24,990 nt of DNA from Myxococcales bacterium (GTDB taxonomy: Bacteria; Myxococcota; UBA796; SXON01), in the NCBI GenBank assembly GCA_009692585.1, contig SHYX01000059.1, positions 1 through 24,990 of the forward strand, written 5' to 3'. The notes under the pieces are model-generated. The model did not search any database, was not told the DNA's origin, and saw nothing but the letters and a program-made list of their open reading frames with translations. Positions 6,542 through 22,975 of the stretch are shown in pieces (position 1 is the stretch's first letter; the number at the start of each line of letters is the position of its first letter). Both the position numbers and the translations under genes were made by a program.

Positions 6542-6564
6542 CTGGGGCGCGTGACGCGCCCCGG
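6542..6564 (+). terminator. Strong GC hairpin between nicotinamidase and VWA genes
   Basis: GGGGCGCG (6544-6551) and CGCGCCCC (6555-6562) form a perfect eight-pair stem with the three-base loop TGA, extendable outward by wobble pairs. It fills most of the 58-base gap. There is no U-run, so it may be a factor-assisted terminator, a processing site that sets unequal expression of the two halves of the operon, or a protein-binding palindrome. The structure is certain; the role is inference. Confidence 0.5.
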
Positions 6565-6586
6565 TCAGACCACATCGGGAGATCCA

Positions 6587-7366: not shown

Positions 7367-7382
7367 GCGCGGCGAAGCCACC

Positions 7383-8210
7383 ATGAGCGCCGACGCCTAC
7401 TTCCACATCGGACACAGCCACACCGTCTGCCAGGACTACGCCGTTGCCCGCCAGCACGGAGAGAGGGAGATCGCTGTCGTCGCCGACGGGTGCTCGTCCT
7501 CCCCCGATACGGACTGCGGGGCACGCCTCATCGCAGCGGGGATGCTGGGGTGGGCGGACCCCGTTCTCGTCTGGGGCGACGACGACGCTCGCAAGGTGAT
7601 CGCGACCGCCGCGGACCATGCGGCGGTTGTGGGCTGGCCGTCGATGTGCGTCGACGCGACCATCGTTGCCGTTCGTCGGGAGCCCACCGTGTTCCGCGCG
7701 TTCGTGGTCGGTGACGGCGTGGTCGTGGCTCGCCGCAGGGACGGCACGTTCCGCGTCGTCGACGTGGAATTCCCGTCAGGAGCCCCGGCCTACGCGAGCT
7801 ATCTGGCGAATGAGCCCCGCCGCGGCAACTACCTGCGCACTGAGCCCGACACACCGTCTCGCGACGTACGAATCGTCCGTGTGTACGACGGCGACTCGGT
7901 GACCGAGGCGTCGAGCTTGGCTCGCAGCGCCGGCTGGGTGCTGGAACTGGTGTTCCCGGTCGTGGAGTTCGAACTCGCGGCTGTCGCCAGCGACGGGCTC
8001 CGCTCGTTCCAGCGGCGCACGGGAACCAGGTTCGCCCCAGTCCCGCTCCTCGAAGTCGTGCCGCACGTCTTTGGCTTCAAGGGCCTCGCCGGCGAGTTCG
8101 TTGCCCGCCGCCTCCGGCGTTTCCTGCGGAAGGAGTGCGAGGACATGGGCTGGCACCCCAACGACGACGTCGCCGTGGCCGCTATCCACGCCAAAGGAGC
8201 GCCATCGTGA
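7383..8210 (+). CDS. PP2C-like Ser/Thr protein phosphatase
   Basis: 275 aa. Metal-dependent phosphatase fold, expected to reverse the action of the neighbouring kinase. Motifs in order: GHSHTVCQDYA (7-20, Asp18), VVADGCSSS (33-40, the Asp-Gly pair of PP2C motif 2), CVDATIVAV (89-97), VVGDGVVVARR (109-118), ASDGLRSF (202-209) and the C-terminal NDDVAVAAI (260-268). The core metal aspartates are present, but spacing is shorter than in stand-alone PP2Cs, as in the compact TerY-P phosphatases. A strong site (AAGCCACC with GCGGCG upstream) is not evident; the start lies 16 bases after the VWA stop, suggesting coupling. Its stop overlaps the kinase GTG. Confidence 0.82.
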   Translation: MSADAYFHIGHSHTVCQDYAVARQHGEREIAVVADGCSSSPDTDCGARLIAAGMLGWADPVLVWGDDDARKVIATAADHAAVVGWPSMCVDATIVAVRREPTVFRAFVVGDGVVVARRRDGTFRVVDVEFPSGAPAYASYLANEPRRGNYLRTEPDTPSRDVRIVRVYDGDSVTEASSLARSAGWVLELVFPVVEFELAAVASDGLRSFQRRTGTRFAPVPLLEVVPHVFGFKGLAGEFVARRLRRFLRKECEDMGWHPNDDVAVAAIHAKGAPS

Positions 8211-9892
8211 ACGTCACCATCCAGGGTCAGGGCGATGTGAGCCTCTCGCAGAACGACTTCGTCGCTTCCGGCGGCGAAGGATCGATCTATGCTCGTGGCT
8301 CCACCGCGTTCAAGGTCTACAGCGACCCGGGCAAGATGATTCCCCACGGCAAGATCAGCGAGCTCTCGGGTATCAACGACCCGAACGTCATCAAGCCGGA
8401 GCGTGTGCTTCTGGACCCCACCAACCACGCGCCCATCGGCTACACGATGCGCTTCGTGAAGGACGCGATGCCGCTTTGTCGGACCTTCACCCGCGCGTTC
8501 CGTGAGCGGGAGGGGCTCGATCACGCCAAGATGGCCGCCCTGGTGGGGAAGCTTCGGGATCTCGTGAAGAACGTCCACGCGGCCGGCATTCTGATCGTCG
8601 ACCTCAACGAAATGAACTTCCTCGTGGACCAGACGTTCGCCGAGGTCTACGGCATCGACGTCGACAGCTACCAAACACGCTCCTACCGCGCGACCGCGCT
8701 CATGCTCTCCGTACGCGATTGGAAGGTCACGCCCCCGGACTTCACCGAAGGTTCTGACTGGTTCAGCTTCGCCTGCGTGGCGTTCCAGATGTTCACCGGC
8801 ATCCACCCCTACAAGGGCAAGCACCTGAGCGGCGTGGGCCTCGAAGGCCGGATGAAGACTGGGATTTCCGTGTTCGACCCTTCCGTCTCCTTGCCGAAGG
8901 CAGCCTATCGTTTCGACGTCATCCCGAACGTTTACCGGGATTGGTTCACGTCGGTGCTCCGCGACGGGAAGCGCAGCCCTCCCCCGGCCGACCTCCAGAG
9001 CGCCGCCATCGTGGTCGCTGCGGTGCGGGCGGTGCTCGGAGGCAATGAGCTCGACATTGCCGAGTTGGTCTCGTTCTCCTCGGCCGTGCTCCAGTACGCG
9101 GAGAACGCTGGTTCGAATGTATCGGTCACGGTAGACGGGGTGTTCTGCGGTCAGCGCAGGGTGTGGAGCGGGCCGACGCCAGGTGCGGGGATCGCCTTCA
9201 CGCCCAAAATGAACCGTCCCGTGATCGCGTGGGTCGAGCAGGGCGTGCTCCGTGTGGTCGATTGCGCGGACGGGAAGGAGGTTCCAGCGACCCTCCGCGC
9301 GGACGAAGTGATGAGCACCGCTGGTCGTGTGTACGTCCGCAGCGGCGACAAGGTGCTGGAACTCGTGCTCACCGACGTGTCCTCGGGCGTCCTCGCTTCC
9401 ACCCGGCTCGCGGCTAACGTCCTCCAGCTCGCAACCCGCCTGTTCGACGGCGTGGCAGTCCAGAACTTGCTTGGTTCCGTGTTCGCGTCCGTGTTCCCTC
9501 GCTCGGGCGAGACCTACCAACTCCGGGTGCCGGAGTTGGACGCGTACCGGGTGATAGAGGCACGTTTCGAGAATCGGGTGCTCATGGTGCTCGCCGCGCA
9601 GGGTGAGCGCTACGACCGCCTCACCTTCCACCTCGCCGACGACTATCATTCCTACCGAATGCTCCCCACAGTGAGGGATGTGACCCCCGGCGGCGTCAAC
9701 TTCATCGTCCTCGACAACGGCGTGTGCGTCCACCTCACCGAGGAAGAAAAGCTGGAGGTCACCGCGGTCGGCTCGAAAAACGGGAAGGTGGTCGAGGCCG
9801 AGGCGCTCGGGAACGACATGCGGCTGGTCAAGCACGCCGGGCGGGTGGCGTTCATCCGCGGCGACACGGTCCACTCGATGAGGATGAAATAA
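8207..9892 (+). CDS. Divergent Ser/Thr protein kinase with C-terminal beta-rich domain
   Basis: 561 aa from a GTG that overlaps the phosphatase stop and follows AAAGGAGC. Kinase motifs: glycine loop GGEGSIY (22-28), Lys36 in AFKVY, catalytic loop VDLNEMNFLV (131-140; Asp132 and Asn137 kept, HRD His/Arg and the DLK Lys lost), and IDVDSYQ (150-156) in place of DFG, the form found in kinases of TerY-P triads. SDWFSFACVAFQMFTG (183-198) is the subdomain IX helix. Residues from about 300 to 561 are not kinase; they repeat short beta-strand units (for example RVYVRSGDKVLEL, NRVLMVLAAQ, RVAFIRGDTVHSM), like a beta-propeller or similar sensor. It lacks membrane helices. I infer that the C-terminal part senses a ligand or partner. 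Confidence 0.83.
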   Translation: MNVTIQGQGDVSLSQNDFVASGGEGSIYARGSTAFKVYSDPGKMIPHGKISELSGINDPNVIKPERVLLDPTNHAPIGYTMRFVKDAMPLCRTFTRAFREREGLDHAKMAALVGKLRDLVKNVHAAGILIVDLNEMNFLVDQTFAEVYGIDVDSYQTRSYRATALMLSVRDWKVTPPDFTEGSDWFSFACVAFQMFTGIHPYKGKHLSGVGLEGRMKTGISVFDPSVSLPKAAYRFDVIPNVYRDWFTSVLRDGKRSPPPADLQSAAIVVAAVRAVLGGNELDIAELVSFSSAVLQYAENAGSNVSVTVDGVFCGQRRVWSGPTPGAGIAFTPKMNRPVIAWVEQGVLRVVDCADGKEVPATLRADEVMSTAGRVYVRSGDKVLELVLTDVSSGVLASTRLAANVLQLATRLFDGVAVQNLLGSVFASVFPRSGETYQLRVPELDAYRVIEARFENRVLMVLAAQGERYDRLTFHLADDYHSYRMLPTVRDVTPGGVNFIVLDNGVCVHLTEEEKLEVTAVGSKNGKVVEAEALGNDMRLVKHAGRVAFIRGDTVHSMRMK

Positions 9893-10716
9893 TGGGCGAC
9901 CAGCGTGAAGACGAGTCCGGCTCTGAGGAGGAGTTCCTGGCGCGGTACAAGGGCCAGGAGTACCCCAAGCCGTCGGTCACCGTCGACGTGGTGATCTTCT
10001 CCATCCTCGACGGTGAGCTGAAGGTGTTGCTCATCCAGCGCAAGGCGCATCCCTTCCGGGGTTGCTGGGCCATCCCGGGCGGGTTCGTCGACGTGGGCAA
10101 CGCCTACTTGGACCAGGGCGAGGACCTCGACGCCGCCGCCCATCGCGAGTTGGAGGAGGAGACGAGCCTCCCTCGAGGCTCCTGCTTCCTCGAGCAGCTC
10201 TACACCTTCGGGAAGGCCGGGCGTGACCCCCGCACCCGGGTGATCACCGTCGCGTATTACGCCCTCGTCCGCCCCACCCTCGCGCCGCTCGTGCACCCCC
10301 AGTCGGACGCCCAGGAGGCCCGCTGGTTCGGCGTCTGGAAGCTGTGGGAGAAGGGTCACCTCGAGGGGACGCCCGAGGTGGTGAAGCCCCTGATCGAGAG
10401 CGAGGGGCCTGGCCCGCTGGGCAACGCGAGCCTCGCGTTCGATCATTCAGACATCCTCACCCAAGCGATTCGGCGCATTCGTGGCAAGATCGACTACGCC
10501 CCCATCGCGTTTGACCTGGTGCCCGAGAGGTTCACCGTCAGCGACCTCCGGTCCGTCTTCGAGGTTGTGAAGGGAACGATGTACCACGCGGGAAATTTTC
10601 AGCGGCGGTTCCAACGGATGCTGGAGGACGGGACCATCGTTCCTGCGGCCGGGGAGACGACCCGTCGCGCTGGCGGGAGGCCGGCGAGGCTCTACCGCTT
10701 CGTGCGCCCGGCCTGA
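9892..10716 (+). CDS. nrtR: NrtR-type Nudix transcriptional regulator of NAD metabolism
   Basis: 274 aa; its ATG overlaps the kinase stop (TAATG). The N-terminal Nudix domain (about 28-175) has the ADP-ribose-type box with Glu followed seven residues later by RELEEET, but an eight-residue insertion splits GGFVD from GE and the last Gly is Ser; catalysis is possible but may be reduced. The C-terminal winged helix (about 205-272) shows FTVSDLRSVFEVVKGT, NFQRRFQRMLEDG and GGRPARLYRF, the NrtR operator-binding domain. NrtR proteins repress NAD synthesis and salvage genes and are released by ADP-ribose or related NAD products. Here it probably controls the genes just upstream and perhaps the 11814 operon, and it is co-translated with a signalling kinase. 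Confidence 0.88.
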   Translation: MGDQREDESGSEEEFLARYKGQEYPKPSVTVDVVIFSILDGELKVLLIQRKAHPFRGCWAIPGGFVDVGNAYLDQGEDLDAAAHRELEEETSLPRGSCFLEQLYTFGKAGRDPRTRVITVAYYALVRPTLAPLVHPQSDAQEARWFGVWKLWEKGHLEGTPEVVKPLIESEGPGPLGNASLAFDHSDILTQAIRRIRGKIDYAPIAFDLVPERFTVSDLRSVFEVVKGTMYHAGNFQRRFQRMLEDGTIVPAAGETTRRAGGRPARLYRFVRPA

Positions 10717-11043: not shown

Positions 11044-11052
11044 GTGCCGTCG

Positions 11053-11357
11053 TCCACCCCGACGGGGGGCCGTGGTAGGCGTCGCGGCCCCGCGCTGGGG
11101 CCCCGGGAGTCGCTGCGCCCGCTCCACGTCGGGTTCGTCTTGCAGGCGCCAAGCCTCGTGGCACCGCTCACCGTCGTCGAGAACGTCGAGCTGCGCTGCT
11201 CCTGGAGCAACGCGCCCCACGGGAGGCCCGCGCTGCTGCGCTCGCCGTGCTCGGGCCGATCGGCCTCGCAGAGCTCGCGGACAAGCCGCCTGAGGATATC
11301 TCCGGGGGCCAGGCGCGGCGGGTCGCCGTCGCGCGGGCGCTCGCCCGTCCGGCGTGA
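11053..11357 (+). pseudogene. ABC-transporter ATPase fragment (MacB/LolD-like)
   Basis: Two reading frames together spell the middle of an ABC ATPase. The first frame gives HVGFVLQAPSLVAPLTVVEN, the Q-loop region of MacB/LolD-type ATPases. Near 11195 the homology moves to another frame that reads LLEQRAPREA...LGPIGLAEL and then ISGGQARRVAVARALARPA, containing the SGGQ signature, before a TGA at 11355. The Walker A region should lie upstream and the Walker B with switch His downstream; neither is present. So this is a frameshifted, doubly truncated remnant. No permease partner is visible. Confidence 0.75.
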
Positions 11358-11730
11358 GGCTCCCTCCCTCGGGGCCGCGCGACGCGATGGCGCTCGGCGG
11401 AAACGTGGTCATCGGGCTCCTGATCCTCGCCGTCACCTCCTGGCTGGTGCTGCATCGACGCCCCCGAGTGGCCGTGTTCGTGGTGTTGTCGATCGGCGTT
11501 GGCCTGGGGCTCCTCGCCGCACTGAAGCTCGGACTCGACCGCCCACGACCGCCCTCGTTCCCCACCTCCAGGCGGTGTACCCGTCGAGCTTCCCCAACGG
11601 CCACTCGATGGGCGCAGCGCTGACCTACCTGACGCTCCTACCCCACTGACGTGCTCGGGGGCTGGGCGATGAGCACGGCATGGGCGCTTTTGTGCGGGAC
11701 CGTGGCGGACTGGATGGAGCGACGCGAGGG
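11354..11730 (+). pseudogene. Decayed PAP2-family membrane phosphatase
   Basis: Successive frames give a scrambled type-2 phosphatidic acid phosphatase. Frame one, overlapping the ABC remnant stop, reads RDAMALGGNVVIGLLILAV, a second hydrophobic segment, and KLGLDRPRP (the K-x6-RP motif). Near 11545 the frame changes and reads LVPHLQAVYPSSFPNGHSMG and ALTYLTL (the PSGH motif, as PNGH). At 11645 the first frame resumes with PTDVLGGWAMSTAWALLC, the C-terminal helix. The segment with the SRxYLGVHY histidine between these parts is missing. One truncation, one internal deletion and two frame changes make a functional product very unlikely. Confidence 0.75.
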
Positions 11731-11813: not shown

Positions 11814-13175
11814 ATGCCCCTCGCGGGAACGCCGGTGTACAGGTCGGGTCTGGTGGTGGGCAAGTTCGCCCCACCCCATCGCGGCCATCAGCTGCTCATC
11901 GAAGCCGCGCGCGCCGAGTGCGCCGCGGTGACCGTGCTCGTGTACGCGAGCCCGGACTTCCCCGACATGCCGTCCGAGCTGCGGGCCGCCTGGGTACGGC
12001 ACCTTTTCCCCGCGGCTTCGGTGCACGTTCCCGTCGATCCTCCCCCCGACGCTGCCGACGATCTCACCCACCGGGTCTACGTGCGCGACTGGCTTGCAGC
12101 CCGCGGGATCGAGGTGGACGTGGTGTACACCAGCGAGGGGTACGGCGAGGGGTTCGCCGCGGTGCTCGGGTTGCCACATCGCTGCGTGGACATCGATCGG
12201 GTGAAGATCGGAACCTCCGGCACCGCCGTGCGCGCGGACCTGATCGCGCGGCAGGGCGTGTTGGACCCGTTCATCTTCCGGGCCGCCATGGGGGTGCTGC
12301 GGCCCGTTTTCGCCGTGCCGGCCACCATGCGCGCCGTGATCCGCACGGCTGCGGGGGTGGAGCTCCGCGACGTACCGACGCCTGTCGCCGGGCCCGGTCA
12401 AGCGCTTGTACGGGTCGTCGTAGCCGGGGTCTGTCGAACGGACACCGCGGCCGCCACCGGGCCGTTCCGGGGGCCGCGTGTCCTCGGCCATGAAGCGTCG
12501 GGCTGGGTCGCCGCAGTCGGGCCCGAAGTGGACCGCGCGCTTCTCGGCGCGCCAGTCGCCATCGACCCGCGGCTCAACGAGGGCATGCTCGGGGTGGACC
12601 GTGACGGCGTCTACGCCGACTTCGTCGCCGTGTCGGTCGGTCGCCTCCTCCCGCTACCTGTGGAGCTCTCCTGGAGGCGAGGTGCCTATGTGGAGCCGGT
12701 GGCTGCTGCCCTCGCCCCCGCTTCCGTGCTCGACCCGGACACCAGCGTGCTCGTCCTCGGGCAGGGGCGGATCGCGAGCCTCGTCGGAGCGGTCCTTCGT
12801 CGAAAGGGGTTTGACCGCGTGACCGTGGCCACGTCGGGGCCGGCGGCCTCCTTCGACGCGGTGGTCGAGTGTGATCTCGGGGTGGACGCACTTTCCCGGG
12901 CGCTCGTCGCCGTCCGCCCACGCGGGCGCATCGTCCTTCGCAGTCGCACGGCCGGGGACCGCCTCCTCCCCGGCGATCTCTGTGTCGCCCGCGAGGCCAC
13001 GATCCAGGCGGTCGGGTACGGCAGCTTCCACGAGGCTGTCGCGCTCCTCGCAAACGGCCTCGATGTGGACGGCCTGCTCGGTCCCGTCCGGCCGTTCAGC
13101 CAGGCCGTGGCGGCCCTGAACGAGGGTGAGTCGCAGAAGGCGTTCCTCGCGCCAGATCCGGCATGTGTGGACTGA
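11814..13175 (+). CDS. NadR-type NMN adenylyltransferase fused to medium-chain dehydrogenase
   Basis: 453 aa in one uninterrupted frame. Residues 13-165 are a nucleotidylyltransferase of the NadR NMNAT type: VGKFAPPHRGHQLLIEAA (15-32, the HxGH motif), VVYTSEGYGEGFAAVLG (103-119), VDIDRVKIGTSGTAVR (125-140). Residues 172-450 are a zinc-dehydrogenase-like MDR: AGVCRTD, VLGHEASG (Cys and His-Glu of the catalytic site), EPVAAALAP and a GQGRIA nucleotide loop. The Cys-rich structural zinc lobe is absent. The fusion would join NAD(P)-nucleotide formation to an NAD(P)-dependent redox step. An in-frame ATG at 12327 begins the MDR part but has no ribosome binding site, so separate expression seems unlikely. 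The gene overlaps asnB-like by 13 bases. I know of no described NMNAT-MDR fusion; novelty is unchecked. Confidence 0.83.
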   Translation: MPLAGTPVYRSGLVVGKFAPPHRGHQLLIEAARAECAAVTVLVYASPDFPDMPSELRAAWVRHLFPAASVHVPVDPPPDAADDLTHRVYVRDWLAARGIEVDVVYTSEGYGEGFAAVLGLPHRCVDIDRVKIGTSGTAVRADLIARQGVLDPFIFRAAMGVLRPVFAVPATMRAVIRTAAGVELRDVPTPVAGPGQALVRVVVAGVCRTDTAAATGPFRGPRVLGHEASGWVAAVGPEVDRALLGAPVAIDPRLNEGMLGVDRDGVYADFVAVSVGRLLPLPVELSWRRGAYVEPVAAALAPASVLDPDTSVLVLGQGRIASLVGAVLRRKGFDRVTVATSGPAASFDAVVECDLGVDALSRALVAVRPRGRIVLRSRTAGDRLLPGDLCVAREATIQAVGYGSFHEAVALLANGLDVDGLLGPVRPFSQAVAALNEGESQKAFLAPDPACVD

Positions 13176-14995
13176 TCGGCGTTTTCGGGGAGGTAGACCG
13201 CGAGCGCGCGATCGCAGGGCTGGCGGGCATCCGCACGCGCGGGCGGGACGGCGAGGGCGTCTGGGTCGGAGATGGCATCGCGCTCGGACACACCCGGCTC
13301 GCGATCCGCGACGTCCAGAGAGGCGGCCAGCCGTTCGTGGGGGAAGACGGGAGCGTCGTCGCGGTCGTGAACGGCGAGCTGTACGGGACCGGGGGGATTC
13401 GCGCGAGACTCCAAGCGCGCGGGCACCGGTTTCGAAGCCACTCGGACAGCGAGGTCGTCGTCCACCTGTACGAGGAGGAGGGCACCGACGGACTGCTCCG
13501 GTTGGAGGGTGAATTCGCCCTTCTGCTCTGGGACGGGAGGCGACGGAGGCTGATCGGAGCGCGCGACCCGTTCGGTGTGCGACCGCTGGTCTGGGCTCGC
13601 TCGGAGGGGCGCGTCTGCCTTGCGTCCACAGCGAGGGGGCTTCACGCGCTCGGTGTGCCTCTCGATGTCGATCCCGACGCCGTCCTCCGAAGTTTTCACC
13701 ACCAGTACCTGCCATGTGGCCACACCCCCTGGGCGGGTGTACGCGCATTGCTGCCCGGCTGGATCCTGACCGTGGACGACGCCGGGCTGGTCGAACGGGC
13801 GTGGCGACTACCGCCGCTGGCCCGAGCGGAGCGGGTCGACGACCCCGAGGGTGAACTCCGCCGTGCGTTGACGGCGGCGGTGGCTGATCGGCTCGATGCC
13901 GACGTGCCCGTCGGTTGCCAGCTCAGCGGAGGTGTGGACTCCGCGGCGGTCCTCGCGCTGGCCGGCCGGGGACGAGACGCCTTCACGGTGTCGTTCCCCG
14001 GCGACCGCGACGAGGTGGACGACGCACGTGACGCCGCCCGGGCGTTGGGCGCACGCCTCCATGTCGTGGAGGCCACGCCAGAGACGTTGCTCGAGGCGTT
14101 GCCAGAGGCCGTGATGGAGTCGGGCGGGCTCTGCATCAACGGACACGGAGCGGCGAAGCTCCTCCTTGCGAGGGCGGCCAGATCGGCCGGCGTGAAAGTG
14201 CTGCTGACCGGAGAAGGGGCGGACGAGCTGTTTTTCGGGTACCTCCACCTTCGCCAGGACCTGCTCGGGCCGAGCGCCGACCTCGAAGCCGAGAATGGGA
14301 CGACGGCGGGGATCCACCTCGCGGAAGGTCTGTCCCTGCCGGTCGACGGTGTTGCCCGAAGGCTCGGTTTTGTCCCCTCGTTCCTCGCCGCGAAGGCGTC
14401 GTTGGGCCACAGGGCGTCGTCCCTGCTGAACCCCGATCTGCGCGCGCTCGGTTCGGGTCGGGACCTGCTCGTGGAGCTGGTGGACGCCTGCGACGTGCCC
14501 GGGAACCTCGCTCCCGTTGATGTCTCGTCGTTGTTGTGGACGCGCCTCTGTCTGTCCGGGAGCATCCTTGGGGTGCTGAACGACCCCGTCGAGCTGCTTG
14601 GCGGGGTGGAGGGCCGGCTCCCGTTCCTCGATTCGCGGGTGGTCGCCCTCGCGATGAGGCTGCCGCATTCGTGGAAGGTGCGCCCCGGGCAGGGGAAGTA
14701 CGTTCTGCGGGCCGCCATGCAAGGTGTGCTCCCCGACGCGGTGCGGTGGCGACCCAAGCGCCCGTTCATGGCGCCGCCGTTGGCTGCGGAGGCCGGCTTT
14801 CGGGATCGCCTGCTCGACACCCTCCCGCGCGACCTGCTCGACCGGGCGGCCGTGGAGCGGGCACTCGCCCTTTGGCCCTCGCTCGCGCCCCGGGAGCAAG
14901 TCAGCTGGGATGCGGCGTTGACGATGGCGCTGTCACTCGGCATCCTGGCGGCCCCGCGGGTGGCCGCACCCCTTCGGCAAGGGGGCGCGGCGTGA
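13163..14995 (+). CDS. asnB: AsnB-type glutamine-hydrolysing amidotransferase/synthetase
   Basis: 610 aa. The start is fixed by MCGLIG: Cys2 must become the N-terminal nucleophile of the class II glutaminase. This domain shows RTRGRDGEG, LGHTRLAI, VVNGELYG and SDSEV segments. The synthetase domain has the PP-loop GCQLSGGVDSAAVL (251-264) and LLTGEGADELFFGY near 347-360. Family members make asparagine or amidate other carboxylates, and in biosynthetic clusters some form beta-lactams or amides on tailored substrates. Placement between an NMNAT fusion and an NRPS-like reductase, with overlapping starts, suggests a pathway-specific substrate, though asparagine synthesis cannot be ruled out. Active-site residues are intact. 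Confidence 0.88.
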   Translation: MCGLIGVFGEVDRERAIAGLAGIRTRGRDGEGVWVGDGIALGHTRLAIRDVQRGGQPFVGEDGSVVAVVNGELYGTGGIRARLQARGHRFRSHSDSEVVVHLYEEEGTDGLLRLEGEFALLLWDGRRRRLIGARDPFGVRPLVWARSEGRVCLASTARGLHALGVPLDVDPDAVLRSFHHQYLPCGHTPWAGVRALLPGWILTVDDAGLVERAWRLPPLARAERVDDPEGELRRALTAAVADRLDADVPVGCQLSGGVDSAAVLALAGRGRDAFTVSFPGDRDEVDDARDAARALGARLHVVEATPETLLEALPEAVMESGGLCINGHGAAKLLLARAARSAGVKVLLTGEGADELFFGYLHLRQDLLGPSADLEAENGTTAGIHLAEGLSLPVDGVARRLGFVPSFLAAKASLGHRASSLLNPDLRALGSGRDLLVELVDACDVPGNLAPVDVSSLLWTRLCLSGSILGVLNDPVELLGGVEGRLPFLDSRVVALAMRLPHSWKVRPGQGKYVLRAAMQGVLPDAVRWRPKRPFMAPPLAAEAGFRDRLLDTLPRDLLDRAAVERALALWPSLAPREQVSWDAALTMALSLGILAAPRVAAPLRQGGAA

Positions 14996-17754
14996 GGTTC
15001 GTCGCGCGCTTGCACGGCATCGCCGCGCGGCATCCGGACGTGCCGGCGCTCGAGGACGGCGGTCTGGTGCTCTCGTACGCCCAGTTGGTGGACCGCGCAC
15101 GTTGGACTGCGGAGGGGCTCTCGCGGGCGGGTGTGGGTCCTGGAACCCGCGTTGCGCACGGGTACACCCGCAGTGCGGATGCGGTCGTGGCGATGTGGGC
15201 AACGTGGATGCTCGGTGCCGCGGTTGTGCCGATCCCCGCCGATTGGCCCGGGGACCGCCGTGCCGACATGATTCGGCGGGCGAGGCCCACAGTGGTGGTC
15301 GGGGAGCGGGACGCGGGCCTGGCGGTGCCGCTGGTTCCGGCCGTCGGCGGCACAGGCCCCGGCTCCTCCTCGGAAGCTCGATCCGGGCCCGAGGGGCAGG
15401 AGGCCTGGGTGATCTTTACCTCGGGGAGCACGGGGCGGGCGCAGGGGGTCTGCGTTCTGGAGCGCGGTGTCTCTGGACTCGTCGACGCACAAATCGCCAC
15501 GTTCGGGTTGGGACCGGGCTCGCGAGCGCTCTGGATGCTGTCTCCGGGCTTCGACGCCACGTTCTCCGACATCCTGACCGCGCACCTTTCGGGGGCGACG
15601 TTGGTGGTCGCGCCGGGCTTCCGAACGGCGGCGGCGCTCGGTGCGTGGATGGAAAGGGCCGGCATCACCCACGCGGATCTCCCGCCGGCCCTGCTCGGAC
15701 CGCTGCTCGCCGTGCGCCCGGCGTCGCTGCAGGTCGTTGTTGCCGGGGGCGAGCCCGCACCGCCCGCGGTCGTGCGACGATGGGCCGGTGTTGTGCGTTT
15801 CGTCAACGTCTACGGGCCGACCGAGGGGACGGTCTGCACGAGCCTCGGCGTTGTGGACCCAAAGGATTGGGACATGCCGCGCATCGGAAGGCCGATCCCC
15901 GGCGTGCGGTACAAGGTGGCGGACGGCGAGCTCTGGATCGCCGGGGATTGCCTCGCCGCGGGGTATCTCCACGACGAGGCGCTCACGGCCGCCCGGTTTG
16001 TGTATGACGACGTCGGGGAGCGGTGGTTCCGAACCGGCGACCGTGTTCGTGCCCGTTCCGATGGGGACCACGCTTACCTCGGCAGGCTGGACCGGATGGT
16101 CAAGATCCACGGCCGCCGCGTGGAGTTGGGGGAGGTCGAGGTGCACCTCTCCGCCGTGCCGGGCGTTTCGAGGTGCGCCGTGGTGGCCGACGACGTCGGG
16201 CTCGCCGCGTTCATCGTGCCGGAGGCGGGAGCGGTCGAGCTCCCTGCGGTGCGGACGGCCCTCGGGCGGTCTCTCCCGACGTGGATGATCCCGGGACGGA
16301 TCGAGAATGTTCACCGGCTCCCGGAGGGGCCGAGCGGGAAAGTGGATTTTCGCGCGCTCGCCGCTCGGGATCGTCGCCCCGTCGGGGGTGCAGGCGGCGG
16401 GCCGACGGTTGCGGCGCGGATCTGGTCGGACGTGCTCGGGCGGGCGGTTGATGACGGTGACGATCTAAACGTCGCCGGGCGGGACTCGATCGCGGTGCTG
16501 GAGGTGCTTGCACGGGCGGAGGCGTGTGGATTGCCGGTCGATCCCGAACAGATCGCGACCGGCCCGACACCGGCGGACACGTTCAGGGCCAGGCCGACGC
16601 CGAGTGCCGGGATCAGAAGGTCGGTGGCCGAACTTCGCGCCTGCGCGCCGGGTCTTCCGGCGTTCGGGCCGCCTCGGTCCCGGACCGGAATCGTCCTTGT
16701 GACGGGTGGAACCGGATTTCTCGGCGCGGCCGTCGTCGCCCGCCTGTCCCGGGAATGGGAGGGCGTTCGCTGCCTTGTCCGCGCGGCCGGGCCGCTCGCA
16801 GCGCGCGGTCGGCTGCTCGCGGCGCTGGAGGGCCTTGACGCCGATCTGCAGCGGGTCGAGGCCATCGTCGGTGATCTGGAAGCGCCGGGTCTCGGGATCA
16901 CCGATCTATCGGCGCTCGCGGATGTGGACAGGGTGGTGCACCTCGGTGCCCGGGTCGACGTCGCGTCTCCCTACGCCGTCGTCGCCCCGTCCATCGTCGG
17001 CGGGACCCAGCGTGTGCTGGAGTTCGCGGCTTCAGTTGGCGTGCGTTCGATCGTCTTCGTCTCCTCCCTCGCGGTGTTCGTCAACAGCGATCATGCGGGC
17101 GGCGTCATCACGGAGGTGTCGGATCCAGACGACTCGGTGAGGCTCCGCGGGGGCTACGCCCAGGCCCGGTGGGTCGCCGACGGCCTGATGCGCGCGGTCG
17201 GGGAACCCAAAGTCGCCGTCCTCCGGCCCGGCCTCATCGTGCCCGATGCCAGCGGACGATGGACAGAACGCGCTCAGCTCAGGCTCTTCGTGCGCGGCCT
17301 GGCGAAGATCGGAGCCGTGCCGGATGCGCTGCCATCGCTTCGGCTCGACCTGACCCCCGTGGGCATCGTGGTGGACGCGATCTCAAGGGCCTGTCACGAG
17401 GAGTTGGGCGGGGTCTTCCATCTCGCGCATCCCACAGGCGCGACCTTTTTCGAGCTGCTGGAGGCCGTCACCCGAGCCGGGGCACCCGTAACGACTGTGC
17501 CGCAATCCGCCTGGGGCACGGTTCCGACGGAGGGCGTCGATGTTGCCATGGTGAGGCTCGGCCTCGCCCGGGCCCTGCAACCAGCGCCGATCGGCGACGC
17601 CGACGACCGACTTCTGGCTTACGACATGTTCCTCGCATCGCGCTTTTCGTTCGACTGCACAGCGACATGGGCACGCCTGGGGCTGCGGCCGCTTCCGGCC
17701 GCCGAGCAACTCCTCGATCGCTGTGCCCAGGTCGCGCTCGGGGGTGGGAGGTGA
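14992..17754 (+). CDS. Adenylation-carrier-thioester reductase (NRPS-like) enzyme
   Basis: 920 aa from a GTG overlapping the AsnB-like stop. Adenylation domain, residues 1-460: IFTSGSTG (141-148), NVYGPTEG (272-279), FRTGD (346-350), GRLDRMVKIHGRRVELGE (364-381), catalytic Lys450 in PSGKVD. The substrate pocket begins FDAT at 187-190, with the Asp that binds alpha-amino groups. Carrier domain 470-535 with Ser499 (GRDSI) for phosphopantetheine. Reductase domain 565-920: VTGGTGFLG (570-578), VSSLAVF, and YAQAR at 722-726, where the catalytic YxxxK lysine is Arg. The architecture resembles Lys2 and carboxylic acid reductases: activate an amino acid, tether it, release it as aldehyde or alcohol. 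No condensation domain is present. Chain release may be altered by the Lys-to-Arg change. Confidence 0.9.
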   Translation: MRFVARLHGIAARHPDVPALEDGGLVLSYAQLVDRARWTAEGLSRAGVGPGTRVAHGYTRSADAVVAMWATWMLGAAVVPIPADWPGDRRADMIRRARPTVVVGERDAGLAVPLVPAVGGTGPGSSSEARSGPEGQEAWVIFTSGSTGRAQGVCVLERGVSGLVDAQIATFGLGPGSRALWMLSPGFDATFSDILTAHLSGATLVVAPGFRTAAALGAWMERAGITHADLPPALLGPLLAVRPASLQVVVAGGEPAPPAVVRRWAGVVRFVNVYGPTEGTVCTSLGVVDPKDWDMPRIGRPIPGVRYKVADGELWIAGDCLAAGYLHDEALTAARFVYDDVGERWFRTGDRVRARSDGDHAYLGRLDRMVKIHGRRVELGEVEVHLSAVPGVSRCAVVADDVGLAAFIVPEAGAVELPAVRTALGRSLPTWMIPGRIENVHRLPEGPSGKVDFRALAARDRRPVGGAGGGPTVAARIWSDVLGRAVDDGDDLNVAGRDSIAVLEVLARAEACGLPVDPEQIATGPTPADTFRARPTPSAGIRRSVAELRACAPGLPAFGPPRSRTGIVLVTGGTGFLGAAVVARLSREWEGVRCLVRAAGPLAARGRLLAALEGLDADLQRVEAIVGDLEAPGLGITDLSALADVDRVVHLGARVDVASPYAVVAPSIVGGTQRVLEFAASVGVRSIVFVSSLAVFVNSDHAGGVITEVSDPDDSVRLRGGYAQARWVADGLMRAVGEPKVAVLRPGLIVPDASGRWTERAQLRLFVRGLAKIGAVPDALPSLRLDLTPVGIVVDAISRACHEELGGVFHLAHPTGATFFELLEAVTRAGAPVTTVPQSAWGTVPTEGVDVAMVRLGLARALQPAPIGDADDRLLAYDMFLASRFSFDCTATWARLGLRPLPAAEQLLDRCAQVALGGGR

Positions 17755-18293
17755 CCCTGCGCGTGCGGATCGTAGGGCCTGAGAGCGCAGGAAAGACGAC
17801 GGTCGCCCGGGCACTGGCCGCGCGCTTCACCGCGGTCTGGGTGCCTGAGTTTGCAAGGGGCTACCTCGAAGCGAAGGAAGGCCGGCTCGAAGTGGCCGAT
17901 CTCCTCGAGATCGCCCGTGGACAAGCGGAGCTAGAAGATGCGGCGGCCCTTGGCATCCGGGAGCCTACCTCCTTCCCCGGCGGCCGTGTCGCCGGCGGTC
18001 TGCTGTTCTGTGACACGGACCCGGCGACGACGGCTCTCTGGGCGCGGGCGCTGTTCGGATCCACAGACCCGGCGATCACCGCTCTCGCCGCCGGCCGGCG
18101 CTACGCACTGACGCTGCTGCTCGCTCCCGCGCCGTGGGTCCCGGATCCGGTGCGCTACCAGCCCGCAGCGGGCGACCGTCAGGCGTTCTTCGAGGCCTGC
18201 ATCGTTGCTTTCCCGAACGCCGTCGTTCTCGAAGGGGGTTGGCAGGCGCGTTGGGACGCGGCGGTTGGCGCGGTCGGCCGCCTGTTCCGGTAG
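17751..18293 (+). CDS. NadR-type ribosylnicotinamide kinase
   Basis: 180 aa from a GTG overlapping the previous stop. P-loop kinase matching the C-terminal half of NadR: GPESAGKTT (9-17, Walker A), VWVPEFARGYLE (29-40), IARGQAELED (54-63) and FCDTDPATTALWA (86-98), all features of the RNK domain that phosphorylates nicotinamide riboside to NMN. In NadR this domain is joined to NMNAT; here the NMNAT half is the first gene of the same operon, fused to a dehydrogenase. NMN made here could be adenylylated by that enzyme. Another small nucleoside or pathway-intermediate kinase activity is an alternative. Confidence 0.82.
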   Translation: MTLRVRIVGPESAGKTTVARALAARFTAVWVPEFARGYLEAKEGRLEVADLLEIARGQAELEDAAALGIREPTSFPGGRVAGGLLFCDTDPATTALWARALFGSTDPAITALAAGRRYALTLLLAPAPWVPDPVRYQPAAGDRQAFFEACIVAFPNAVVLEGGWQARWDAAVGAVGRLFR

Positions 18294-18294
18294 G

Positions 18295-18306
18295 CCCTCC
18301 CGAGGG
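18295..18306. terminator. Short stem between convergent operons
   Basis: CCCT and AGGG pair around a four-base loop in the 23-base gap between the kinase stop and the oxygenase stop. The stem is short and has no U-run, so it is a weak candidate for a bidirectional terminator. Confidence 0.2.
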
Positions 18307-18316
18307 GAAGGCGAAC

Positions 18317-19195
18317 TTACCGCCATGTCGCAAGGGGATGGTATTCGGCCTCGATTCGCTCCGTCGCGCCCTGCGATGCGTCGTCCACGCTCGGCGGTGC
18401 TCCGGGCCAAGGCGGGACCAGCCGGAAGTCGATGCTGAAGCGCGTGGTGCCGGCGATCGGGTTCGGGCGCGTCTGGTGGAGGTGGTGGCCAGCGAATAGG
18501 ACGATGTCTCCTGCCCGGGCAGAAAACCGCAGATCAACCGTCGGCCTCGGCACGCCGACGCCCTTGACGGTTTCGCCGGCGCGGAGAAGTGCCCCGATGG
18601 GCCGCGGATAGTCGGCGAGGGTCGCCTTCCCGTGCCAGCCAATTCGTTCCATCCAGCTCCGGAACTCGAAATCGGCGGAGGTGTTGGGGATCGGGTTGTC
18701 GAAAAAATCGGGGTAGAAAACGAACGACTGACTCTCCGGCAGGTCGTGGAGCGGCACCCAGGCGTTGATCTGCGCTTGCGGGCAGGCGTACCAGGTGTCG
18801 CGGTGGGCGGTGAACATGGACTCGGCTGCGGGCACCTTCTCCGCTCCGAACGGGACAAAACGAAGTCGTGGTTGGTCCATCCGCGCGTCGTCGGGAAACC
18901 CGAGGTCGCGGAAGACCGCGGCCGCGAGGGTGGCCACGAGGGCGGTCGTTTCGACGGCCCGCCGACCCTCGGCGAGCAACGGGAATTCATGGAGTCCGAG
19001 GTGTGGTTCTTCGCGGAGCGTGGTTGTCAGGACTCGCACGACCTCGCTCACCAGGTTGCGCGATCCGTTGGTGGCCTCGATCAGCAGGATCTCACCAGCG
19101 TGGACGGCCTCGGCGAGGGCGCGGGCCCCGACCCCGTTCGCCCCAGGTTCGTCGGCCCCCGGTTGTCGTCGCGGGTTCAGGCGCCTGCGGATCAT
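18317..19195 (-). CDS. Phytanoyl-CoA-dioxygenase-like 2-oxoglutarate/Fe(II) oxygenase
   Basis: 292 aa. Non-haem iron oxygenase: the iron ligands are His131 and Asp133 in TAHRDTWYACPQAQINAW and His240 in GHHLHQTRPN, with Arg252 (TTRFSIDFR) in position to hold 2-oxoglutarate. The segment FVFYPDFFDNP (158-168) follows the HxD motif. The start is the ATG at 19195, which overlaps the methyltransferase stop (ATGA); the frame stays open further upstream but that part is antisense-like. Such enzymes hydroxylate, halogenate or desaturate small molecules. It converges on the NRPS-like operon, so a tailoring role there is plausible but unproven. The substrate is unknown. Confidence 0.82.
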   Translation of the reverse strand: MIRRRLNPRRQPGADEPGANGVGARALAEAVHAGEILLIEATNGSRNLVSEVVRVLTTTLREEPHLGLHEFPLLAEGRRAVETTALVATLAAAVFRDLGFPDDARMDQPRLRFVPFGAEKVPAAESMFTAHRDTWYACPQAQINAWVPLHDLPESQSFVFYPDFFDNPIPNTSADFEFRSWMERIGWHGKATLADYPRPIGALLRAGETVKGVGVPRPTVDLRFSARAGDIVLFAGHHLHQTRPNPIAGTTRFSIDFRLVPPWPGAPPSVDDASQGATERIEAEYHPLATWR

Positions 19196-20013
19196 TCCGG
19201 CTGCCCTCGCGCTCGGCCGCCGACGTCGCGTTGATCGGGAACCCCCTCGGGCCGGCGCCCGCTCAGCAGGATCCTCGGCCCGGTGTGCGGCCCGGGCCTG
19301 CTCGACGTCCACGCCGGCCAGCTCTCCACGTCCACAAATCCGGCAGTCGCCAGGGCGTCCCGCAGCTCGGCCACGGTGATGATCGCCAGCCGAACCACGT
19401 CCTCCCACCTCGCCCTTCCGTCGTCGTCGCCGTTGCCTTGCGCCCAGATGCACTCCGTCCTGTCGGTGTGCACCCAGACCGAGGCGGGGGCGTCGATCTC
19501 CTGATGCGCGACGCGACGAAGTCGGAATCCGTCGAGGCTCGCCTCCTTCGGTTCGGGCTTCACGTGGTTCTGGAGGATGTGGACGAAGTCAGGGAGGTCG
19601 ATGACCACGACGCCTCCCGGATCGAGCGCACGAAGCAGGCGCCGCAGAGCCTCCCGGCGCTCCGGGGGGCCGGCGAGGTAAGCCAGCGGGCCGTTGATCA
19701 GGCAGATGAGGTCGAAGCGCTGCTCGAAGTCCAGCTCCAGCATTCCCTCGGCGCCGACCGCCACGTCAGGTGCGCGAGCCTGGGCCGCCGCGCGGTAGTC
19801 GGGATCGGGCTCAACGGCCTCGACGTGCCATCTGGCCGCGCACATGCCCGGCAACAGCCGGCCGGTTCCGCAGCCCACGTCCAGCACGTGAGGCCGTTCC
19901 GCCAGGCCGTACCAGCGCCGGACGGTGTCGAGGAAGGCGATCATCGTGTCGGCACCCGCCACCCGACCAAGGAATAGGTCGTACAGGGCGGCGCGGGAGG
20001 GGGGAGACCTCAC
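19192..20013 (-). CDS. Class I SAM-dependent methyltransferase
   Basis: 273 aa from a GTG. Motif I is VLDVGCGTGRLL (43-54), with an acidic strand-2 end (VEPDPDYR), motif post-I Asp in RFDLICLINGPLAYL, and GGVVVIDLPDFVHIL. The N-terminus YDLFLG is common in small-molecule methyltransferases. The last 25 residues are Arg/Gly rich and may be dispensable. It is co-translated with the oxygenase downstream (ATGA overlap) and its own GTG overlaps the stop of the methylase stub. Methyl acceptor unknown; a natural-product tailoring step fits the neighbourhood. Confidence 0.85.
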   Translation of the reverse strand: MRSPPSRAALYDLFLGRVAGADTMIAFLDTVRRWYGLAERPHVLDVGCGTGRLLPGMCAARWHVEAVEPDPDYRAAAQARAPDVAVGAEGMLELDFEQRFDLICLINGPLAYLAGPPERREALRRLLRALDPGGVVVIDLPDFVHILQNHVKPEPKEASLDGFRLRRVAHQEIDAPASVWVHTDRTECIWAQGNGDDDGRARWEDVVRLAIITVAELRDALATAGFVDVESWPAWTSSRPGPHTGPRILLSGRRPEGVPDQRDVGGRARGQPE

Positions 20014-20921: not shown

Positions 20922-21278
20922 ATGGGCAAGTACGCATTCATCGACAACATCTTCGGTACCGACGACGAGGAAGAGACCGGGGCGAACGACGCCTTCGAGG
21001 AGGAGGAGGACGATGACGACGACGACGAGGACGACGACCCGCCCGCAGAGGACGACGCCATGCTCGCCCGTCTCGACAAGGCGTACCGTGCGCTGCGGGC
21101 TCGGGTTCGGGCCGTTTCCGACCTGTCCGAGTTGCGGACGATGCGGTCCGAGCACACCGCTGCACTCGCCGGGTGTCAGAGCCCGACCCTGCGCCTGCGC
21201 ACGCTCGACATCATCGAGGCCATCGACGACCGCGTCACCAATCTGCGCGCCAGTCGCGGCGGTCCCCGGAGCCAGTGA
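20922..21278 (+). CDS. Small, strongly acidic protein of unknown function
   Basis: 118 aa with an almost unbroken Asp/Glu tract at residues 14-46 and a C-terminal helix-rich half (RLDKAYRALRARVRAV, then LRLRTLDIIEAIDDRV). A good ribosome site, AGGAG, lies nine bases before the ATG. No family recognised. Acidic low-complexity proteins next to a repressor can be DNA mimics or histone-like chaperones, but that is only a possibility. Its stop overlaps an ATG of the next frame by one base (TGATG). Codon use in the acidic tract is GAC/GAG-biased as in the rest of the window. Confidence 0.7.
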   Translation: MGKYAFIDNIFGTDDEEETGANDAFEEEEDDDDDDEDDDPPAEDDAMLARLDKAYRALRARVRAVSDLSELRTMRSEHTAALAGCQSPTLRLRTLDIIEAIDDRVTNLRASRGGPRSQ

Positions 21279-21315
21279 TGTCGGCCACCTTCCGCGCCGT
21301 GCAACGACCGCGCCA

Positions 21316-21579
21316 GTGGTCGCCCAGCGTGGCGCCACCCAGCCGGTCCGGGAGGAGAGCCATGGCCCCGAGCGGCGACGCCGCCGCGAGGGGAACGAGT
21401 CTGCGGATGTCGCCGCCGCCAATCAGCTCGCGGCGGACCAAGCAGCCGCAGAGCAGGCCGCAGCGGAGCAGAAATGGCGGGATGAAGAGGATCTGCGCGA
21501 ACTCCGCGAACGAGCGCGCTGCCGAGGGCCAGCGCGACTCGCGACTCAGTCGGCGTGCGGTGCGCGTGCAGGGCATTGA
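21316..21579 (+). CDS. Candidate coiled-coil frame overlapping the recombinase 5' end
   Basis: In a frame other than that of the recombinase, this stretch encodes AANQLAADQAAAEQAAAEQ followed by KWRDEEDLRELRERAR, a convincing amphipathic helix with protein-like codon use, while the recombinase frame over the same bases looks like non-coding Ser/Arg/Pro-rich translation. The best ribosome site nearby (GGAGGAG at 21351) serves the ATG at 21362 in the recombinase frame. One reading is that the true product starts at 21362, passes into this frame near 21395 and returns near 21525, meaning two frameshifts. As a separate 87-aa protein it is doubtful. Confidence 0.3.
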   Translation: MVAQRGATQPVREESHGPERRRRREGNESADVAAANQLAADQAAAEQAAAEQKWRDEEDLRELRERARCRGPARLATQSACGARAGH

Positions 21580-22975
21580 CCGGCTTTACGTCTGGGCTTT
21601 CTCGCGCGTCGCCAGGAATATGTTCGACTGTCTGAAAGCCTTGGCCACGCTCGACGAAGCCGACATCGACGTGATCTCGCTGACCGAGCCCGACGCGAGG
21701 GACAACTCCTTCCGCAAGTTGATCCGGCCGATCCTCGCGTGGCTCGCCGAACGTTACCGCGAGGAACTCTCGCGGAACGTCGTTCGGGGCATGCGCTCCC
21801 AAGCCGAAAAAGGGTTCTGGCAGAATGGGCACGCCCCCTACGGGTACGCCCTCCAGAAGGTCGAGGGCGGCACCAAGCTCGCCGTGACCGACGAGACGCG
21901 CGTGGACTTCGACACGGTGCAGCGGATCTTCACCGAGTACCTCGTCGGGAAGGACGGCCAGAAGCGTCTCGCCGAGAAGCTGACCCGGGAGGGCGTGCGG
22001 CCCCCGAGTCGCGAGGTCGCCCGCGATCGGTTCGCGGGGACGTGGCGCCCGAAGCACGTCCAAAACATCCTGACGAACGTGACGTATTGCGGCCACCTCG
22101 TGCAGAAGGGCGACGCGCTCGCGCGCAACTGCCACGACGCGGCCGTCTCCGACGAGGACTTCGCCCGCGTCGCCGCCCTCCGCAAGCTGAAGGACCGGAG
22201 CAAGGACGAAGGCGGCAACGGCAACCACGCCATCCATATGAGCGAACGCGGCGTGCTCACGCCGTGGCTTCGGTGCGGATCGTGCCGCGGGCGCATCGCG
22301 ATCACCGGCGGCGGACACACCGGGAACGTGCGCCACTACTACACCTGCGCCACCCGGCAGGAGAACAAGGCCAACTGCTCCGGCCTCTCCGTCCGCGTCG
22401 AAAAGCTTGATGCCGCCGTCCTCGACTACATCCACGACGAGGCCCTCTCGCCAGAGTCAGTGCGCGAAATGATCGACCAGGGCGTTGTCGCACTCGCCGA
22501 CCAACCCGACGAGAACCAGGCTGAGCGCGTCCGCCTCGCCACCGACATCGCCGAGTTGGACGCCCGCATCCGCAAGATCGGCCTCCAGGTCGCCGACGAC
22601 ATCCTCACTACCGAGGACGCGAAGGCGCTGAACGCCCCGCTCATCGCCCGTCGCGAGGCCCTGAAGCTCCGCCTCGCGGCCCTCCCGGAACGCAAGCCGG
22701 TCCCCACCCCCGACCGGATGGACCCCGCGAAGTTCCGCGCCGCGGTGTTGGAAGCATGGAGCACGCGCCCCCTCGACGAGCGCCGCGAAGCGTTGGATCG
22801 TCTCGTCGAGAAGATCACGCTCTCAGACGGTGGCGCCCACGTCGACTACCGCGTCAAGGACGAACAGATCGCGTTTCACCAGCCTGACCCCTCAGGCCCG
22901 CCGTCGGGTTCATGGGGACAATGGACCCATGTGATCGACACACCGGACGTCCGATCGCCACGAAAGCGAGCGTGA
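21362..22975 (+). pseudogene. Large serine recombinase lacking its catalytic-serine half
   Basis: Recognisable homology begins near 21550 (GIDRLYVWAFSRVARN) with the second half of the resolvase domain, then LSRNVVRGMRSQAEKGFW and APYGYAL of the recombinase domain, KHVQNILTNVTYCGHL, a zinc ribbon (LRCGSCRGRI ... YYTCATRQENKANCSG), a long coiled coil and a C-terminal tail. A normal member starts with a YxRVS-type motif carrying the nucleophilic serine about 60 residues before DRLYVW. No such motif is present in any frame here; the bases instead hold the coiled-coil frame above. So strand cleavage should be lost, although zinc-ribbon DNA binding may persist. The start at 21362 is chosen for its strong Shine-Dalgarno; the frame is open from further upstream. 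Confidence 0.75.
22881..22897. repeat. 17-bp hairpin-forming word, inverted copy B
   Basis: Exact reverse complement of 4-20. Here it lies inside the recombinase reading frame, encoding QPDPSG, about 80 bases before the stop. A second hairpin follows at 22911-22931 (CATGGG and CCCATG around nine bases), so the 3' end of this gene is rich in palindromes, as expected for a terminator region or element end. Confidence 0.6.

Follow-up and report, generated by a model that had tools for sequence, protein, structure and literature searches.

To our knowledge, there is a single known route in which NAD itself is built into a natural product. In the altemicidin (sbz) pathway, NAD is a biosynthetic substrate and the first enzyme, SbzP, is a pyridoxal 5′-phosphate (PLP) enzyme (PMC11610977). 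The other described systems closest to the locus analyzed here are protein families: NadR of nicotinamide riboside (NR) salvage, with a nicotinamide mononucleotide (NMN) adenylyltransferase (NMNAT) and a ribosylnicotinamide kinase (RNK) domain; reductases resembling nonribosomal peptide synthetases (NRPS-like), composed of adenylation, thiolation, and reductase domains (A-T-R); the AsnB family; and medium-chain dehydrogenases/reductases (MDRs). Relatives of all of these are encoded by overlapping genes in a stretch of 24,990 nucleotides from a Myxococcales bacterium (assembly GCA_009692585.1, contig SHYX01000059.1), referred to below as the window. The same gene content recurs in five phyla, with a near-invariant adenylation pocket and with both NadR activities either retained or replaced. 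Comparative sequence evidence gives good support to the view that the NadR activities share a pathway with AsnB and A-T-R, because they co-occur, because NMNAT is fused to MDR and A-T-R to RNK, and because decayed halves have been replaced. We tentatively propose, giving it slightly less than an even chance, that the locus consumes or forms a pyridine nucleotide (NAD, NMN, NR, or a compound closely analogous to them) stoichiometrically and does not use it only as a hydride carrier.

The sequence-only reading from which this work started had described a fully overlapping operon of four genes, NMNAT-MDR, AsnB, A-T-R, and RNK, bracketed by the halves of a split NadR. The positions of the four open reading frames (ORFs) proved exact (see the table below; the fusion gene as a whole runs from 11814 to 13175), with overlaps of 13, 4, and 4 nt; those of A-T-R and RNK are parts of larger open frames that begin at 14536 and 17169, respectively. 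Residues 11 to 142 of the first protein align with positions 3 to 145 of the NadR model TIGR01526 (E value of 6e-12), the remainder being an MDR (PF08240, E value of 3e-14), and the RNK protein aligns with positions 164 to 304 of the same model (E value of 3e-25). With 45 and 89 bits, the two halves stay below the TIGR01526 cut-off of 341 bits, which says little, since complete cluster NadRs also fall below it (0 of 27 genomes reached it). Signature motifs were found in each of the four genes, the exception being the YxxxK motif of the reductase domain, which reads YAQAR. As in NadR of NR salvage, both domains and their motifs are present, i.e., the nucleotidyltransferase motif in the NMNAT domain and Walker A and B in the RNK domain, and the acceptor region is like that of PnuC-linked Myxococcota NadRs; in contrast to NR salvage, the halves are separate, the NMNAT is fused to a dehydrogenase, PnuC is missing, and the setting is one of AsnB and A-T-R genes. 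The A-T-R protein (Pfam domains AMP-binding, PP-binding, and NAD_binding_4, with the carrier serine present) has the three domains and their signature motifs in common with NRPS-like reductases carrying MxcG-type and aminoadipate-reductase-type R domains, whereas its pocket code is near-invariant among the clusters, the window and one relative (locus L153) have YxxxR in place of YxxxK, and an RNK is fused to it in four relatives. The AsnB-like protein (Pfam domains GATase_7 and Asn_synthase) shares the N-terminal nucleophile cysteine and the SGGxDS ligase loop with the hydroxyamidotransferase 7ylz and with E. coli AsnB (1ct9), but these best solved relatives match it over only part of its length.

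The dehydrogenase half of the fusion is unusually compact. It comprises 282 residues, compared to 316 to 364 in the 50 best solved matches, and is thus about 35 to 80 residues shorter; its closest relatives are stand-alone short MDRs (30 proteins of 260 to 319 residues). The nearest solved folds of its structural model are threonine and sorbitol dehydrogenases, with which it shares the fold and four conserved residues (C, H, E, and E) at what we take to be the zinc-binding positions of these enzymes. It differs from them in its length, in the absence of a stretch of the nucleotide-binding domain, within which the gap falls, and, according to the alignment, in the GxGxxG motif, which is altered to Gx[GN]R[IF][AS].

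An alignment of these compact MDRs (A3) was scanned against genome contigs, and 80 loci were kept out of at least 188 confirmed ones. All 80 were screened; AsnB, NadR, RNK, and methyltransferase were looked for at L028 to L080 and none was matched, so that the loci studied from this first scan are L001 to L027. Further loci were added for Planctomycetota by means of a NadR query (L102 and L103) and for Myxococcota and Cyanobacteriota by means of the MDR alignment. The set of MDR, AsnB, methyltransferase, oxygenase, A-T-R, and NadR genes, whole or lacking one or two tailoring genes, was found in five phyla as judged by record titles (Myxococcota/Deltaproteobacteria, Planctomycetes, Alpha- and Gammaproteobacteria, Melainabacteria/Obscuribacter, and Eremiobacterota); L102 has the four core genes only, and the cluster at L018, in the complete genome of Limnoglobus roseus, comprises six genes. 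A compact MDR is present in 20 of 282 Myxococcota genomes, at a threshold set post hoc where the scores drop from 246 to 206 bits, in 4 of 194 Cyanobacteriota sensu lato (the one in genome G821 being isolated), and in 1 of 190 Alphaproteobacteria, namely, the seed itself. The neighborhood co-occurrence put forward as a check in the sequence-only reading was borne out: at 36 loci with the triad of MDR, AsnB, and A plus R domains, NMNAT was present at 30, RNK at 31, methyltransferase at 31, and oxygenase at 30. The profiles for these counts were built partly from the window and several of the counted loci, and the number of distinct loci is perhaps 35, as the NadRs of L027 and L145 are identical over the compared region; with the window excluded, together with two loci that had been found via NadR, the counts are 27 of 33 for NMNAT and 28 of 33 for RNK. 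The whole architecture of the window, NMNAT-MDR fusion included, is repeated at L153 in the sister genome G450, with sequence identities of 70% (AsnB), 67% (NMNAT), 58% (A domain), 57% (MDR), 50% (RNK), 50% (oxygenase), and 42% (methyltransferase); the fusion protein of L153 equals entry P0002 except for the start residue. Since both the fusion and the gene set recur there, the arrangement in the window is not a matter of chance. Beyond the two halves, G450 yielded just a 22-bit NadR match over 72 positions, which agrees with the earlier expectation that no complete NadR would be found elsewhere.

Several candidates were set aside in the course of the survey. Compact MDRs at L138 (G243), L140 (G274), and L184 (G821) were rejected as clusters, as AsnB and A-T-R were not found nearby; no NadR was found in G243 and G821, and G274 gave a 28-bit match. 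The Mycobacterium ostraviense locus L009 has dehydrogenase and adenylation matches, but neither AsnB nor NadR. A phage or plasmid origin was likewise rejected: the scan of viral contigs with the MDR alignment yielded no relative, and NadR matches reached at most 40% identity in plasmids and at most 44% in the best 10 of 765 phage records. Caulobacter jumbo phages (records H45 to H54) carry a NadR that shares 44% identity with its counterpart in the cluster of the planctomycete TBK1r (L020). Full-text searches of the open literature, judged by titles and the beginnings of abstracts, returned no description of such a cluster, and the locus is apparently undescribed and sporadically distributed.

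The link between NadR and the cluster was quantified in 282 Myxococcota genomes, using TIGR01526 at an E value of 1e-15 or lower. NadR was found in 36 of them, i.e., in 18 of the 20 genomes with a compact MDR versus 18 of the 262 without (odds ratio, 122; Fisher P = 1.3e-16, a value that overstates significance because the genomes are related and relatedness was left uncorrected). In 15 of the 18 compact-MDR genomes having NadR, NadR or RNK adjoins cluster genes; in G001, NadR adjoins the oxygenase and methyltransferase genes. Of the 18 genomes that have NadR but no compact MDR, 17 (all except G475) were inspected: PnuC lies within about 1 kb in 13, one has a cut cluster fragment (L160), and three have neither PnuC nor cluster. 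Queries that matched PnuC in five of five controls found none on the stretches fetched for the 36 triad loci. At genome level, PnuC exceeds the cut-off in 4 of 24 carriers, always on contigs other than that of the cluster, and NadD does so in 20 of 24. In most of the carriers examined, the cluster NadR therefore does not serve NR import.

The idea of a single NadR split in two did not survive phylogenetic analysis. A maximum-likelihood tree built from NMNAT domains placed the cluster NadRs in a single group (support, 97/90) and the NMNATs of the window and P0002 within other NadRs (100/99), and forcing these two into the cluster group was rejected by the approximately unbiased (AU) test (P = 0.0009). 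The RNK of the window pairs with that of L153 (100/97) among the cluster RNKs (85/90), although a grouping with salvage RNKs was not rejected (P = 0.235). The two halves are separate proteins of different lineages, and the NMNAT half of the window has apparently replaced the cluster's own. Judging from motifs, NadD seems to fill the NMNAT role in some other clusters. At L081 (on the contig shared with L003) and L082/L004, the NMNAT motif of NadR is lost (GDFCPLTNAH) and the cluster encodes a tandem NadD-like protein (L081:1516-3030 and L082:2326-3693), the first domain of which has an intact motif and the second an altered one; L010 likewise has a tandem NadD at 8592 to 9962, its NadR being cut by the contig end. 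The kinase activity shows a corresponding pattern. The NadR kinase of L083 lacks the P-loop, and that of L016 keeps the P-loop and lacks the lid segment; each has beside it a separate intact RNK, either fused to A-T-R or standing alone. Since for both activities a decayed copy adjoins an intact one, each activity appears to be needed, and both seem to be kept by selection. Fusions of A-T-R to a C-terminal RNK in one frame occur at L006:14440-17793, L012:3033-6410, L083:6401-9781, and L169, in Alphaproteobacteria and one myxobacterial genome (G424).

The adenylation pocket is near-invariant across the cluster loci: the letters DASD[VILT]G[VC][VI]C were read at 35 of 37 loci examined, the other two being unreadable. 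Codes were taken from the alignment for 22 loci (L011, L014, and L015 included) and from the pattern alone for 13, so that for the latter the pattern itself dictates the first D and the G. Presumably, going by specificity tables, this code resembles those for Gln, Glu, and other polar residues; a closer assignment would be unsafe. The reductase YxxxK motif has its lysine at 33 of 35 readable loci, the only arginine variants being YAQAR in the window and YTQAR at L153.

Genes of NAD metabolism recur around some of the clusters. Among the 25 most widespread flanking families surveyed, those beyond shared gene order were protein kinases (4 loci), NrtR, nicotinate phosphoribosyltransferase (NAPRT), and tandem NadD; PLP enzymes, exporters, resistance genes, and head-group transferases are not among the recurrent families listed. 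NrtR lies beside the window cluster, L022, and L148, all myxobacterial, NAPRT and nicotinamidase beside the window cluster and L148, tandem NadD at three Obscuribacterales-type loci, and nicotinamide phosphoribosyltransferase together with a 27%-identical NadE at L006. At L148, NrtR, NAPRT, and nicotinamidase are located directly upstream of MDR on the same strand. Radical-SAM and RimO neighbors of the alphaproteobacterial loci were considered as members and judged to reflect shared local gene order. The sequence-only reading had invoked the altemicidin pathway as a precedent. The idea of NAD as a substrate is common to both (PMC11610977), but the analogy found no support in detail: no PLP family is among the recurrent neighbors listed (a direct search with SbzP was not made), and the PLP-like ORF of the window (265 to 1191) lies 10.6 kb away.

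Taken together, co-occurrence, replacement, the conserved pocket, and the NAD-gene neighbors make it likely that the pathway uses or yields a pyridine nucleotide. The RNK resembles the NR kinases that accompany PnuC, so that its acceptor is probably NR or a close analogue of it. The chemistry and the order of steps, as we infer them, would be as follows. A-T-R would load one conserved amino acid, presumably with a polar or charged side chain as suggested by the pocket, and release it reductively as an aldehyde; the MDR might tune the oxidation level of the released product, AsnB would form an amide, and the methyltransferase and oxygenase could add decorations. RNK would phosphorylate a riboside, and NMNAT would then adenylylate the nucleotide so formed. 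If the proposal is true, it would be a second, independent link of cofactor synthesis to specialized metabolism, at a locus that is compact, present in five phyla, endowed with a near-fixed amino acid pocket, subject to replacement rather than loss of its NAD-making activities, and small enough for expression of the whole cluster.

Several observations weigh against this proposal. NMNAT is missing from the stretch fetched for six of the 36 triad loci (L012, L141, L144, L186, L187, and L024). The earlier expectation that AsnB and A-T-R would not occur without NadR halves fails locally, at all of these loci except L012. At L186 and L187, no NadR adjoins the remaining genes, and a cluster-clade NadR is located elsewhere in both genomes; L012 has only RNK, fused to A-T-R, and its NadR on a separate contig; and no NadR was found in the assembly with L024, where the contig stops 2.5 kb past A-T-R. 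In G410 (L141), G286 (L144), and G359, the sole NadR resides on a separate contig that carries no cluster genes; it groups with PnuC-linked rather than cluster NadRs. An NAD gene is nearby at just 7 of 36 loci, and a ribosylating enzyme is not part of the core. The exchange of lysine for arginine in the R domains of the window and L153 may impair reduction there. Differences in the RNK acceptor site, considered as a sign of a new riboside, mostly vanished when closer PnuC-linked Myxococcota NadRs served as controls; the acceptor region does not set cluster NadRs apart from the nearest PnuC-linked ones, and a novel riboside is unsupported. Of the pathway suggested by the sequence-only reading, the tie of the NadR activities to AsnB and A-T-R has thus been strengthened by co-occurrence, fusions, and replacement, and the loci without local NadR count against it.

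The chief rival, in our estimate doubtful and yet the strongest alternative, is that the cluster NadR makes plain NAD from NR for the reductase, the dehydrogenase, or an NAD-poor cell, and that the product contains no pyridine nucleotide. The similarity of the cluster RNK to the nearest PnuC-linked NR kinases, the origin of the window NMNAT in another NadR lineage, and the NAD salvage genes adjoining some clusters all accord with it, as do the three carriers whose salvage-type NadR, on which they seem to depend, lies apart from the cluster. Because the NadRs of G286, G359, and G410 are separate and of salvage type, we rated the pyridine nucleotide as substrate or product, and with it the NAD-analogue version below, slightly lower, and plain NAD supply slightly higher. 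Such a supply does not sit well with the distribution of PnuC described above, nor with the presence of NadD in most carriers, so that NAD is mostly made regardless, and redox use alone leaves the fusions to A-T-R and MDR unexplained. A more specific version of our proposal, in which the product is an NAD analogue, i.e., an amino-acid-derived or modified base on ribose that RNK and then NMNAT convert to an intracellular dinucleotide serving as a new cofactor or antimetabolite, is improbable in our judgment; bearing on it, NrtR is the sole recurrent regulator, and no exporter or resistance gene is among the recurrent families listed.

It is rather less probable still that the pair was repurposed, with A-T-R and MDR making an amino alcohol which the RNK-like enzyme phosphorylates and the NMNAT-like domain then links to a nucleotide, by analogy with the formation of CDP-ethanolamine or CDP-choline. 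The A-T-R-RNK and MDR-NMNAT fusions would suit sequential steps on one intermediate, and the methyltransferase is compatible with N-methylation; however, the fact that the replacements are an NMNAT from a different NadR lineage and, apparently, NadD points to substrates like NMN or nicotinic acid mononucleotide, the RNK is not distinct from NR kinases, and a head-group transferase is lacking from the recurrent families listed. Self-protection, with NadR refilling the NAD pool against a product that depletes NAD or mimics it, would fit the genes for NAD regulation and salvage that flank some clusters, but we consider it very unlikely, as neither fusion to biosynthetic enzymes nor retention as separate kinase and adenylyltransferase after decay of one of them would be expected, and no exporter is among those families. 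That the operon incidentally acquired two NadR pieces hardly merits credence, for although some clusters have no NadR nearby, the association within one phylum, even if its P value is inflated by relatedness, and the recurrence in five phyla contradict it.

Judged by the gene content of its relatives, the unit is larger than the four plus-strand genes and spans 11814 to 20013, because relatives of the oxygenase and methyltransferase encoded on the minus strand are cluster members at other loci. The Pfam search of the window gave no match for the oxygenase, in which the motifs HRD and HLHQT are present; the fold of its model (predicted local distance difference test [pLDDT], 79) resembles PtlH with a template modeling score of about 0.5, and its orthologue at L153 matches PF05721 with an E value of 0.001, below the family cut-off. 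The methyltransferase subtype of the window is shared with L153 (42% identity, at the same place), L085 (43%), and L160 (38%). L085:852-2461 and L160:1241-2835 are cluster fragments with a complete NadR and the window subtype of oxygenase and methyltransferase; this subtype is therefore older than the NMNAT swap, or it has moved. A defense system was rejected as an explanation, since PADLOC, run on ten window proteins, matched the methyltransferase only (E value of 1e-14, over part of a larger model).

Table. Features of the window (contig SHYX01000059.1) discussed in the text
Feature	Position	Strand	Basis
NMNAT (NadR N-terminal type), fusion half	11814..12326	+	TIGR01526 match; motifs GKFAPPHRGH, SGTAVR
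Compact MDR dehydrogenase, fusion half	12327..13175	+	PF08240; model pLDDT 95.7; 282 aa
AsnB-like glutamine amidotransferase/ligase	13163..14995	+	TIGR01536, E 2e-97; Cys2, SGGVDS
NRPS-like A-T-R	14992..17754	+	Pfam and NCBIfam; DASDVGVVC; GRDS at 16477; YAQAR at 17155
Ribosylnicotinamide-kinase-type P-loop kinase (NadR C-terminal half)	17751..18293	+	TIGR01526, PF13521; in tree among cluster RNKs
PhyH-type 2-oxoglutarate/Fe oxygenase (putative)	18317..19195	-	HRD...HLHQT; profile and fold match
Class I S-adenosylmethionine methyltransferase	19195..20013	-	PF13649; GTG start at 20013
NrtR-type Nudix/winged-helix regulator of NAD genes; neighbor, not core	9892..10716	+	PF00293 and PF21906
NAD synthetase; context, not core	1971-3956	+	Profile searches
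Nicotinate phosphoribosyltransferase-like; context, not core	4105-5625	+	Profile searches
Nicotinamidase-like; context, not core	5704-6528	+	Profile searches

The remainder of the window holds a few further elements. The NAD salvage row opens, at 265 to 1943, with two ORFs, a short one resembling PLP aminotransferases (weak HisC match) and an unassigned one with an HELTH motif, and between nicotinamidase and NrtR it includes a triad of VWA, PP2C, and kinase-like genes at 6551 to 9892. The interval from NrtR to the cluster (11044 to 11650) contains frame-broken remnants which, by eye, resemble an ABC-transporter ATPase (ISGGQARRVAVARAL) and a PAP2 phosphatase (LDRPRP...FPNGHS), an assembly error being possible. 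A large serine recombinase is encoded at 21173 to 22975, about 1.2 kb past the cluster.

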